Shown piece by piece: positions 8,834-36,495 of a stretch of 36,495 nt of DNA. The position numbers and the translations under genes were made by a program. The stretch comes from Draconibacterium sp. (GTDB lineage: Bacteria; Bacteroidota; Bacteroidia; Bacteroidales; Prolixibacteraceae), in the NCBI GenBank assembly GCA_027011835.1, contig JALUZN010000106.1:1-36495 (forward strand). The letters are read 5' to 3'. Under the pieces are notes generated by a model that was given only the letters and a program-made list of their open reading frames with translations, was not told the DNA's origin and made no database searches. Positions within the stretch are counted from its first letter, which is position 1; every line of letters begins with the position of its first letter.

Positions 8834-9340
8834 TTAATTCGTTTTAAAATTATATTTTACTTTCGAAAGCTCATCGTTTGCTTTTACAATTTTCTGTTTT
8901 AAACTCTCTTTATATTCAATTAGTTTTTGCATTAATGCTTCGTCGCCGGTGGCCATCATTTGCACGGCAAGAATGGCGGCATTCAACGCACCATTAACAG
9001 CAACCGTTGCAACCGGAATTCCGGGAGGCATTTGTAAAATTGCCAAAATCGAGTCGACCCCCGAAAGTGTGGCATTTATCGGAACTCCAATAACCGGAAT
9101 CGGAGTCATTGCAGCAATCACGCCCGGCAGGTGTGCAGCCATTCCGGCACCTGCAATTATTACTTTAATTCCATTCTCTTTTGCACTTTTTGCAAAAACC
9201 TCCACCTCTTCGGGCGTGCGGTGTGCCGATAAAGCATTCATTTCGAAAGGAATTTCAAAATCCTCAAAAAATTTAGCTGCCTTTTCCATCACTCCCAAAT
9301 CGGAAGTGCTCCCCATAATAATGCTCACTTGTGGTTTCAT
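8834..9340 (-). CDS. purE: N5-carboxyaminoimidazole ribonucleotide mutase PurE
   Basis: VSIIMGSTSDLGVMEKAAKFFEDFEIPFEMNALSAHRTPE and AGMAAHLPGVIAAMTPIPVIGVP are PurE signatures. Confidence 0.96.
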   Translation of the reverse strand: MKPQVSIIMGSTSDLGVMEKAAKFFEDFEIPFEMNALSAHRTPEEVEVFAKSAKENGIKVIIAGAGMAAHLPGVIAAMTPIPVIGVPINATLSGVDSILAILQMPPGIPVATVAVNGALNAAILAVQMMATGDEALMQKLIEYKESLKQKIVKANDELSKVKYNFKTN

Positions 9341-9622
9341 AGTATAAAATTAAATTGAACAACCCGAACGGTACAACTTCCCCATTCATTCATCAGTATG
9401 TAAATATTTCAAAATTATAATTTTCGGTATTTTTCCCTCTGCAAATTAATAGCAAACTGCCAAAACTTAAAATTCAATATTATTTCAGCCATAAATTGTT
9501 CCCCGTTTTGCTTTTTATATTTTCTGTAAACCGAATTGTTTTGTTATTTTGTACCTTTTAAATTCGAAAAAAAACAAAATTACAGCAATTTAGCAACTTA
9601 TAAAAATCAATCTTTTGAAATT

Positions 9623-32777: not shown

Positions 32778-33113
32778 TTATTTTTTTAGCAGAATTTGTA
32801 ACAGCATTTTCCTCTTTCTTGTCGATGTTGGTATTTCTGTTTTGTCGGTTAAATAGAGTGTAAATGAATTTTGCTTGTCGATTTTTGTAATGTGCTCGAG
32901 GTTTACAAGATACGACTGGTGCGAACGGAAAAAAGAGGCTCCTGCGAGCTGTCTCTCGTATTCTTTAATATTTTTCGAAACCATTATTGGTTCACGGTTA
33001 ACTAAATAAAAAGTAGTATAGCTGTTTTCGCTTTTGCAATACAAAATGTTTTCGAGCAGAATAAAATGTATTGCATCGTTTGTGTTTAAAACAATACGCT
33101 TGCCGTTTGCCAT
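32778..33113 (-). CDS. Stand-alone LytTR DNA-binding domain protein
   Basis: ILYCKSENSYTTFYL...FFRSHQSYLVNLEHITKID...IPTSTRKRKML; no receiver domain. Start MANGKRI at 33113 preferred. Confidence 0.85.
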   Translation of the reverse strand: MANGKRIVLNTNDAIHFILLENILYCKSENSYTTFYLVNREPIMVSKNIKEYERQLAGASFFRSHQSYLVNLEHITKIDKQNSFTLYLTDKTEIPTSTRKRKMLLQILLKK

Positions 33114-33220
33114 AACTGTTTTTGTTTCGAATATAAAGAACAATTATTTATAAACTCGCTAAGAATTTGAAACCGTTGGACTTGAGTTTGAATTCGACCT
33201 GAAATCAGAAGAATATAAAA

Positions 33221-33970
33221 TCAGAGATTGCTTAAACGTTTAATCAGAGATTTCTTTTGTCTGATTGAAACAGGAATCTCTCTTTTATTTTTCATAATAA
33301 CAAAACCTCCATCTGACTTATCGACCTTTTTAATGAAATTAAGATTGACCAAATAGGATTGATGTGTCCTGAAAAAATTGTACTCGTTTAATAACTCATC
33401 GTACTCTTTTATGCTTTTCGATACTGTAATCTTTTCGTTGTCGGTTAAATAAAATGTGGTGTAGCTGTTGTCGCTTTGGCAATAAAGAATGTCGGCAATA
33501 TCGACAATGTTTAACGATTCGGTAGTTTTTAGTACCAGCTTTTTGCTTTGTGTCTCTTTTTTAAACGACTCCATTAAAATGTCGGATTGTACCGATGTGT
33601 CTGATTTTGCTTTTATCTCGTTAACGGCACGTTTTATGGCGTGTTGGAATTCAATTTCGTTAACCGGTTTTAGAATGTAATCGAGCGCACTGTATTTTAT
33701 TGCTTTAATGGCATACGAGTCGAATCCGGTAATAAAAACCACTTTAAAAGTGTATGGACGTAATTTTTGCAGAACTTCAAATCCTGTTCCTTCTTTAATT
33801 GCAATGTCGAGCAGAACTAAGTCGGGTTGATTGTGGTTGATTGTGTCGACTGCACTGCTAACCGAGTTTGCAATGCCAACTACTTTAATCTCAGGGAAAT
33901 ATTCGGCAAGTAGTTGTTTGTTAACGTCCTGCAGGGTTGGTTCGTCGTCTATAATTACGGCTTTAATCAT
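33221..33970 (-). CDS. LytTR-family response regulator
   Basis: Receiver VIIDDEP...DLVLLDIAIKEGTGFEVL...FITGFDSYAIKAIKYSALDYILKPV plus LytTR domain. Confidence 0.94.
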   Translation of the reverse strand: MIKAVIIDDEPTLQDVNKQLLAEYFPEIKVVGIANSVSSAVDTINHNQPDLVLLDIAIKEGTGFEVLQKLRPYTFKVVFITGFDSYAIKAIKYSALDYILKPVNEIEFQHAIKRAVNEIKAKSDTSVQSDILMESFKKETQSKKLVLKTTESLNIVDIADILYCQSDNSYTTFYLTDNEKITVSKSIKEYDELLNEYNFFRTHQSYLVNLNFIKKVDKSDGGFVIMKNKREIPVSIRQKKSLIKRLSNL

Positions 33971-35879
33971 TGTTAATTATTGGAAGGCTTAGTATTACTT
34001 TTACTCCGGTTTCACCTGTTTTGTTGTCATTTAAATTAATCAGCTCAAATTTAAAATCTTTCTTGTATTTCTGCTGAATTAGCTTTCTTCTTTTTTCAAA
34101 AATTATTGTTGCCATCGATTTGTGCTCCCCATTTTCCTTGTCAGTTTTCTCAATGCCACGCCCGTTGTCTTCAATAATAAAATCTATATGGTCGCCTTTG
34201 TCGGTAATTGTAATCCTTAACAATCCGCCGTTCTCAATATTTGCAAAGCCGTGTTTTATCGAGTTCTCAACAAAAGGTTGAATCAACATCGGAGGGATTT
34301 TTATAAAATCAATTTCCAGCTCTTCGTTGTAATTTATTTCGAAATTAAAATTGTTGTTTGTTCGCATTCTTTCCAACTCAATGTAGTTTGTCAGCATCTT
34401 TATTTCGTCGGCAAGTGGAATTACTTCGGTAGCCGAGTTGTTTAGAATGGCCCGCGTTAGTGTGGCAAATTTCGATAAAAATTCGGAGGCTTTTTTTGTG
34501 TCGTTCCGAAGCATAAAGTTTTGTATAGACCCCAACACATTAAAGATAAAATGTGGGTTCATTTGAGCTCGCAAAATTTGTTGTTGCAATATATTCTGTT
34601 TTAGTTCGGCCTGTTTTTTCCTTATTTGAAGAATGTATATAATTAATCCAATTAACAACAAAAGAGCTACAACTATAATAACTGCTGCTTTTATTCTGTT
34701 GTTTTTTAGTTTGTTCTCGGTGGTTAGCAGTTCAATTTTTTGCTCTTTTTTCTTGGTTTGGTAGCTAATCTCCAGGTCAACAATTTTGGTGCGAATCTCT
34801 TTGTCGCGAATCGAGTCGGACAGTAATTTATATTTCTCATTCCAAAAAAGTGCCTCTTTAAAATTTCCGCTTTTTTTCTGAATTTGATATAAAATTCTGA
34901 ATGTTCGCATCATTTCGTCGGGGTAATTTTCTATTTTTTTATTTTGAGCGGCAAGCATGGCATATTTTTTTGCTTCACTTAAATTGTTTTTTGCCAGAAA
35001 GAGTTCAGCCAGTAAATTGTTGTCGTAAATATTTTGGTAGCCTTTCCCGTTCCGGTAGGTTTGCCCTAGTTTTGCCGATTCCAGTGCTTCGTCGATTCTA
35101 CCTAAATTTTTTAAAACGGTTGCCCTGTTACTTAATGCAACTCCAATTGCCCGATTGTAATTGTTCTCTCTCCCAATTGTCATTAGTGTATCGTAATAGA
35201 GCAGTGCCTGTGTGTAATTTTTATTGCTCTCGGCAATTCCGCCCAAATCGTTATAAATTGCAGCAACGGCCGCTGTAGATGCATATTTTTCGTTGTGAAT
35301 TAATTGGTAAGCTTTCTGTACATATTCTTCCCACTTCTCTTTTTCATCTGCCGATTTGTAGACTTCTCCAACACGCTGGTAAAAATAGGCCATGTCTGTA
35401 GAGTCGTTTAATAACTCTTTTATACGAATTGCCGAAATTGAATAGTTGGCTGCTTTCAGGTATTTCCCAATGTCGGCATACTCGCTGCCTATGTTAATTA
35501 AAATACCCGGAATTCTTGTGCTGTCACCGCTTAAAAAACCTGCATTTAAAGCAATGGTGTAGTAATAAATTGCCGAATCCGACTTGCCCATATAACTGAA
35601 ATTCGATGCGAGGTAATTGGTTATTGTCGAAATGGCTTTCTGGTTATGAATGGCTTCTGCATAAACCCAAGCGGTACGCAGAGCATTGTTGCTTTGCTGA
35701 AATTGGTTGTTGTTGTCGTAATACTTGGCTAGTTTATACCAGTTGCGTGCTAATGCCAAGGTGTCTTTGTTTTGTTTTGCATCATTTATTTTATTCCGAA
35801 ACTCAACAATACTCTGACAATATAAATTGCTAATAAAAACGAGGGAGAGAAATGTAAAAATCAGACTTTTCCGTTTCAT
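33963..35879 (-). CDS. TPR-containing LytS/YehU-type sensor histidine kinase
   Basis: Signal peptide, TPR-like repeats, TM segment AAVIIVVALLLLIGLIIYIL, His_kinase motif LRAQMNPHFIFNVLGSIQNF, ATPase PPMLIQPFVENSIKHGF and IIEDNGRGIE. Overlaps the response regulator start. Confidence 0.94.
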   Translation of the reverse strand: MKRKSLIFTFLSLVFISNLYCQSIVEFRNKINDAKQNKDTLALARNWYKLAKYYDNNNQFQQSNNALRTAWVYAEAIHNQKAISTITNYLASNFSYMGKSDSAIYYYTIALNAGFLSGDSTRIPGILINIGSEYADIGKYLKAANYSISAIRIKELLNDSTDMAYFYQRVGEVYKSADEKEKWEEYVQKAYQLIHNEKYASTAAVAAIYNDLGGIAESNKNYTQALLYYDTLMTIGRENNYNRAIGVALSNRATVLKNLGRIDEALESAKLGQTYRNGKGYQNIYDNNLLAELFLAKNNLSEAKKYAMLAAQNKKIENYPDEMMRTFRILYQIQKKSGNFKEALFWNEKYKLLSDSIRDKEIRTKIVDLEISYQTKKKEQKIELLTTENKLKNNRIKAAVIIVVALLLLIGLIIYILQIRKKQAELKQNILQQQILRAQMNPHFIFNVLGSIQNFMLRNDTKKASEFLSKFATLTRAILNNSATEVIPLADEIKMLTNYIELERMRTNNNFNFEINYNEELEIDFIKIPPMLIQPFVENSIKHGFANIENGGLLRITITDKGDHIDFIIEDNGRGIEKTDKENGEHKSMATIIFEKRRKLIQQKYKKDFKFELINLNDNKTGETGVKVILSLPIINND

Positions 35880-36225: not shown

Positions 36226-36351
36226 ATGAAACGAGCATGGTCGACACAACACAAAAGTTTATGTGTAAATTGTGCATGCGAGTTCCATGGGTCAAGAATT
36301 ACAATTTCGACTTGTATGTTTATCTGTTTGAGTTACAGTATTTTAATTTAA
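36226..36351 (+). CDS. Repeat-unit small ORF, copy 1 (41 aa)
   Basis: ATG to TAA: MKRAWSTQHKSLCVNCACEFHGSRITISTCMFICLSYSILI. Below the ORF-track length cutoff; coding status unproven. Confidence 0.4.
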   Translation: MKRAWSTQHKSLCVNCACEFHGSRITISTCMFICLSYSILI

Positions 36352-36361
36352 TTATATACGA

Positions 36362-36487
36362 ATGAAACGAGCATGGTCGACAAAACACAAAAGTTTATGT
36401 ATAAATTGTGCATGCGAGTTCCATGGGTCAAGAATTACAATTTCGACTTGTATGTTTATCTGTTTGAGTTACAGTATTTTAATTTAA
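36362..36487 (+). CDS. Repeat-unit small ORF, copy 2 (41 aa)
   Basis: MKRAWSTKHKSLCINCACEFHGSRITISTCMFICLSYSILI; same length, Q8K and V14I relative to copy 1. Confidence 0.4.
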   Translation: MKRAWSTKHKSLCINCACEFHGSRITISTCMFICLSYSILI

Positions 36488-36495
36488 TTATATAC

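Follow-up and report, generated by a model that had tools for sequence, protein, structure and literature searches.

A 136-bp repeat at a Draconibacterium contig end: probable tandem copies of a small non-autonomous element that inserts at ATGAA, mostly at start codons

Hairpins and guide sequences are features of the single-strand transposition of the IS200/IS605 family (PMC6006769). Of the TnpA subclasses listed there, 1.2 is rich in Bacteroidetes and has no known REP partner, and 2.6 has atypical flanking structures (PMC6006769). The Bacteroidota have no Shine-Dalgarno sites, and structure at the start affects their translation (PMC6847099). The repeat described here lies at the right edge of a window, that is, the whole analysed stretch of 36,495 nt, from Draconibacterium sp. 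(contig JALUZN010000106.1 of assembly GCA_027011835.1). Its two units are probably a small mobile DNA element, non-autonomous and present here in tandem, perhaps moved by a single-strand mechanism like that of IS200/IS605, and the element is apparently undescribed.

The first-pass annotation of the window reported a near-identical 136-bp tandem unit, and this is borne out. The two head-to-tail units are identical at 132 of 134 positions (98.507%, BLAST over 134 nt), and Tandem Repeats Finder returns a single array at 36226-36495 with a period of 136, 2.0 copies and a score of 526. The sharp left border placed at the ATG at 36226 is exact; complete copies elsewhere all begin at ATGAAACGAGCATG, with differing left flanks. 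The head of unit 1 pairs with the 3' arm of its P1 helix (Table 1), a pairing seen as covariation at the family level, and the TTCCAT of this arm can pair either with the left ATGAA or with the ATGAA that follows. The lack of the last 2 nt of unit 2 was initially put down to a break inside a longer tandem array. It is correct that the contig broke because of the repeat, but the longer array as the cause does not stand. Copies in the same genome finish with either GA or TT directly before ATGAA, and a further contig (C298) likewise stops at unit position 134. Since both contigs stop where the GA and TT copies diverge, the contig end is a fork in the assembly between diverging dispersed copies, and not necessarily a run into a longer tandem array. 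There are at least two units at this locus.

Table 1. Coordinates of the element units, their parts and a possible remnant in the window
Feature	Position	Strand	Basis
Unit 1, full-length class I element (136 bp); starts with ATGAAACGAGCATG, finishes with TATACGA, next ATGAA follows	36226..36361	+	R1 46.9 bits, E=1e-6
Unit 2, tandem element lacking its last 2 nt at the contig end	36362..36495	+	98.5% identical to unit 1; R1 48.7 bits, E=4.4e-7
Head of unit 1, ATGAAACGAGCATG, with the left copy of the target (ATGAA) and the 5' P1 arm	36226..36239	+	(nearly) invariant in the family alignment
Unit 1 3' arm of P1, CATGCGAGTTCCAT	36275..36288	+	sequence; family covariation
Unit 2 head: the right ATGAA of unit 1 is the left end of unit 2	36362..36375	+	sequence, BLAST
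Unit 2 3' arm of P1, CATGCGAGTTCCAT	36411..36424	+	sequence
Possible decayed remnant: 18-nt match to the right end of the element, directly before the ATGAAACC start codon of ORF 8834-9340 (AIR-carboxylase-like)	9342..9359	-	blastn E=0.9 alone; abuts an ATGAA start codon like intact copies

Elsewhere in the window, the 18-nt match at 9342-9359 may be a decayed copy of the element. As a separate observation, a LytTR-only protein (32778-33143) adjoins a full LytTR response regulator with a similar LytTR domain (33221-33970), both on the reverse strand, and a TPR histidine kinase (33963-35879). The LytTR-only protein looks like a tandem duplication minus the receiver domain.

In the genome from which the window comes (G000, 538 contigs), there are 25 matches to the two-unit query, of which approximately 20 are substantial; these are of the 136-bp class and are on separate contigs. 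Every complete copy has ATGAAACGAGCATG at its left end and borders directly on a second ATGAA at its right end; nearly always, a gene begins at this second ATGAA. The genes behind these copies include those for FolK, acetate kinase, RidA, a carboxylase subunit inside an operon, lipoproteins and unknown proteins, among others. At one copy the ATG of the gene is now ATA and an in-frame ATG is supplied by the element. Several copies are truncated, with only the 3' part retained. Across the family, tandem doublets make up approximately 10% of copies (24 of 205) and the longest run seen is three. The right-edge unit is a dispersed, usually single mobile element placed at gene starts.

The initial description of a recently amplified repeat that is not a CRISPR, an rRNA or tRNA, an IS end or a protein repeat is therefore supported by these data, but the tandem-array system (ncRNA, peptide or guide array) proposed with it, with partner genes beyond the contig end, is refuted for the family and has become very unlikely here. 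A near-identical head-to-tail pair at a contig end does invite this interpretation. However, the copies are dispersed and mostly single, with doublets as infrequent as stated and runs never above three, assembly forks between dispersed copies account for the contig ends, and no partner gene travels with the element. The reading frame that a multicopy peptide array would need is broken: frame 0 (MKRAWSTKHKSLC...; the youngest copies read MKRAWSTKHKSLCINC...) is interrupted by stop codons or frameshifts in several G000 copies and in nearly all relatives. A Pfam search of the unit reading frame gave no match and no internal ORF is present in the element. It is more improbable still that the assembly has artificially duplicated one unit. 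The position at a contig edge in so fragmented a draft genome would be consistent with such an artefact, but the units differ at 2 positions and doublets are found at interior positions in other genomes, including genomes of one contig.

The flanks of five G000 copies, joined without the element, were searched for within the genus and empty sites were identified at the RidA locus and at further loci. At the RidA locus, genome G019 (89% identical) is contiguous, reading ...AATAAAAACATGATT followed directly by ATGAAAAAAATT..., and the occupied site in G000 reads ...AATAAAAACCGAATT, then the element (ATGAAACGAGC...TTTACAA), then ATGAAAAAAATA..., placing the element exactly between ATGAA copies. 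The copy at the acetate kinase gene is common to G000 and G019 and is missing in G001 and others. Elements of different classes have reached one and the same start codon in separate events in G000 and G027, and in G094 a minimal unit is lodged inside another element at an internal GATGAA. As for an element with a fixed target, there is an ATGAA at both borders and there are empty sites; the aligned ends contain no inverted terminal repeat. It is almost certain that this is a mobile element that inserts at ATGAA.

An ATGAA is present 22-85 nt past the tail in 205 of the 221 copies that have a head, a tail and enough downstream sequence, although the head/tail pattern search favours intact copies and some genomes contribute many of them. 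The distances cluster at 27-34 and 71-74 nt. With gene calls made as simple ORFs, an ORF of 60 or more codons starts directly at the ATGAA in 133 of the 205 ATGAA-bordered copies, 11 have an ORF start within 45 nt, 18 lead into another element and 42 are without an ORF start. The right-hand ATGAA is mostly the start codon of a gene in the same direction as the element. Relative to intergenic ATGAA in contigs of a similar type (186 start codons against 524 other intergenic), gene starts are enriched with an odds ratio of 7.07 (p=1.8e-29). In the 15 nt to the left of the element, 71% of copies score like a native start-codon context or initiation region, compared with 27% of intergenic ATGAA, so the left ATGAA is usually the former start context of the gene.

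A search with the head identified a shorter class of approximately 90-100 nt, with the same head, fold and right border as the 136-bp class and with the tail GCGAGTTCCAT. Allowing no more than 1 mismatch, this short class is in 36 of the 37 genomes of the genus, usually with 10-60 copies in each, and a reversed-pattern control gave 0-3. In the order, the exact head is present in at least 16 of 149 genomes, with 185 exact heads in G094. A covariance model, R1, was made from 58 short-class copies, leaving out the 136-bp class I copies. It recovers both window units (Table 1) although their class is absent from the model, and it has matches in at least 53 of the 149 genomes of the order and at least 29 of 300 genomes of the phylum, other classes included. 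The copy counts for most genomes are likewise lower bounds, coming from patterns or from a model search that scored no more than 13-27 candidates per genome. In the genomes of named species, a gapped pattern finds the element in Draconibacterium, Maribellus, Mariniphaga, Sunxiuqinia, Marinilabilia, Anaerophaga and Thermophagus, and also in Paludibacter, Proteiniphilum, Dysgonomonadaceae, Tannerellaceae, Odoribacter and a Cytophagales bin. The plasmid and phage records contained no match to the element.

Variants of the element were also seen. In G094, a composite of approximately 145 nt, amplified as a unit, consists of the minimal element (ATGAACCGAGCAT..ATGCGAGCTCTATACGACC..) inserted at the internal GATGAA of a normal element (loci L111, L130, L131, L134, L140, L144 and L146), and a standalone copy of this minimal inner part is found in L128. 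Sibling heads ATGAAACCATCATG, ATGAAACATTCATG, ATGAAACCTCCATG and ATGAAACACACATG are found in L068, L108, L309, L116, L127, L122 and L250, often beside normal copies, and some of them run on into a common CACTAATTTTCTTGTCTTGTGTCTTGATTC tail; these are possibly a second element family at the same site. Near position 256 of L364 (G102), a locus with a subclass 2.6 TnpA gene, there are ATGAA-bordered direct repeats beginning ATGAAACAACCATGAGAACCTTAAAGTTCTCACACC. One copy of the element is on a 4.6-kb contig labelled as viral (L148, IMGVR_UViG_3300011323_000053), which may be chromosomal contamination.

The P1 helix of the element pairs ATG-A-AAC-GA-GC with GC-GA-GTT-C-CAT and contains tandem G·A mismatches that are (nearly) invariant across the Bacteroidales alignment. 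Outside the Bacteroidales, AAAC/GTT has become AAAT/ATT by compensation (ATGAAAT/ATTCCAT), and one form there has an extra matched pair (ATGAAATC/GATTCCAT). Behind the head is a small hairpin, P2, with changes on both sides. The P4 helix pairs CATnnn with NNNATG, the ATG being the right-hand start codon, and its variable positions are paired in 175, 162 and 171 of 205 copies, against shuffle means of 85, 102 and 139. Unaided, RNAalifold returns exactly the six P4 pairs. The covariation score of the whole structure is 0.248 in the 58-sequence alignment, against 0.073 when shuffled and at most 0.074 when slid. Both helices share one CAT segment, which can close either P1, through the left ATG, or P4, through the right one. 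P4 is weak in the class I copies, which include the window units.

A helix of this kind could belong to a cis-regulatory RNA leader under selection, in which the CAU of P1 switches between an upstream AUG and the start codon of the gene, turning translation on or off for a regulon. The siting at start codons is consistent with this, as are the presence of the start AUG in a covarying P4, the sensitivity of translation in the phylum to start-codon structure (PMC6847099), and the folding of ten single sequences into P1 and/or P4, with z mostly -1.5 to -3.5 and one at 0. However, P4 is no better kept at gene starts, where it is complete in 79 of 118 copies, than at non-gene sites (33 of 48, p=0.86), and it is complete in 15 of 20 copies before another unit. 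The downstream genes, folK, ackA and ridA among them, are unrelated, and the orthologous genes of relatives are mostly without the element. There is, then, a conserved helix with the start codon, but neither a preference for gene sites nor a consistent gene association, and selection as a regulatory leader is improbable. Being kept equally at gene and non-gene sites, P4 belongs to the element itself and not to its location at a gene, which speaks for a role of the pairing in movement; P4 is probably for mobility rather than regulation. It is complete in 117 of 163 copies with perfect heads and in 10 of 23 with decayed heads. An effect of the element on translation is likely, because the Bacteroidota are without Shine-Dalgarno sites and are sensitive to start structure (PMC6847099). 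Another route to mobility is through RNA, by reverse splicing or by template switching with a reverse transcriptase, targeting AUGAA in transcripts or R-loops. This would explain both the start-codon bias and the sense orientation at gene starts, it would suit an RNA-like fold with covariation, and the G000 copies that are truncated 5' and intact 3' could also point to RNA-templated copying. Against this, no reverse transcriptase was noticed nearby, 20-25% of copies are at non-gene ATGAA, some of them before terminators, and the truncation may be ordinary decay. Spread by such an RNA route is rather unlikely.

For the mobile DNA element, movement as single-stranded DNA in the manner of IS200/IS605 is proposed, although an HUH-type mechanism is a tentative suggestion with somewhat less than an even chance of being right. 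The hairpin foot reads ATGGAA on the bottom strand and can base-pair with TTCAT, the target, as well as with TTTCAT, the end of the element itself, like the guide and cleavage sites of IS200/IS605. Cleavage at TTCAT, with insertion of the element on the 3' side of this site, would be the work of a trans-acting enzyme. Gene starts may be favoured because ATGAA is a common start and the element brings its own AT-rich leader, so that the gene is left unbroken in bacteria that do not use Shine-Dalgarno sites. A tandem pair would result from the insertion of one copy at the ATGAA that ends another, and the pairing with the start codon may change translation as a side effect. The hairpin and the CAT/ATG pairing are observed, with covariation, and their role as a guide is a proposal. 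Position 4 of the ATGAA is mismatched in the proposed guide pairing, which would therefore be insufficient alone to specify the full pentanucleotide. For a guide that pairs with the bases left of the target, the signal did not exceed that of shuffles.

No mobilising enzyme was found among the Y1 candidates checked and no Y1 gene is consistently flanked by the element. TnpA_Y1 subclass 1.2 is present in 40 of 53 element-positive genomes and 48 of 96 negative genomes, but its absence from G094 excludes it as a required partner. Subclass 2.6 has 22 element-positive genomes among its 32 carriers, but it is absent from G094, which has the highest copy number, from G080 and from other high-copy genomes. 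The flanks of 30 subclass 2.6 loci contained no credible element matches, the element is nearby at just two of approximately 30 other Y1 loci, and it is absent from the flanks of the RAYT-like gene of G000. No longer autonomous version with the same ends was seen; there are three long head-tail spans, of 187, 405 and 1813 nt.

It is conceivable, if doubtful, that this is a new phylum-wide class of mobile elements for start codons, having a bistable hairpin with a CAU that pairs with the left or right ATG and an enzyme linked to no element so far, and re-setting the translation of hundreds of Bacteroidota genes while it spreads. For a parasite of compact genomes, it is an unusual lifestyle to land exactly at start codons and leave the gene unbroken. 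The element can also readily supply new gene leaders where, as in this phylum, initiation does without Shine-Dalgarno sites. Although common, with copy numbers that reach at least 185 in a genome, it is missing from Rfam, where no match was found, and from the literature searched (subscription journals and ISfinder being outside the scope), where no such element is described and its diagnostic strings occur in no relevant context. The enzyme that recognises ATGAA and the hairpin is the puzzle that it poses. For annotation, the ATGAAACGAGC head creates a false upstream start.

The element shares features with several known systems. Start-codon-sequestering leaders, such as riboswitches, thermometers and candidate motifs including Bacteroidales-1, also have a covarying helix with the start AUG, but they differ from the element, which matches no Rfam family, is mobile with empty sites and has a helix that is not favoured at gene sites. 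Like MITEs and the pneumococcal-type repeats BOX and RUP, the element is short, non-autonomous, dispersed and near genes; unlike them, it has no DDE-type terminal inverted repeats and its target belongs to the pairing structure. The REP/REPIN/RAYT (TnpA_REP) sequences are similarly short, high-copy and intergenic, with an imperfect hairpin, and are possibly moved in trans by a single-copy TnpA. However, the element lacks the GT[AG]G foot, having ATGGAAC / GTTTCAT instead, is found before start codons rather than 3' of genes, has an exact ATGAA insertion site and, in contrast to a REPtron, does not flank RAYT genes. The ends of IS200/IS605 and its non-autonomous derivatives (HUH/Y1 TnpA) share with the element the lack of terminal inverted repeats, a short fixed target, a fixed orientation and an imperfect hairpin beside a short sequence that is able to pair with the target and the end. 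The element is not assigned to either IS200/IS605 or REP because neither a Y1 partner nor REPtron-like flanking was found when these were sought. It differs from IS200/IS605 in that a single hairpin appears to serve both ends, with no tnpA/tnpB version found, and in its 5-nt target, ATGAA, which is mainly at start codons and is accompanied by an extra covarying triplet across the right junction.
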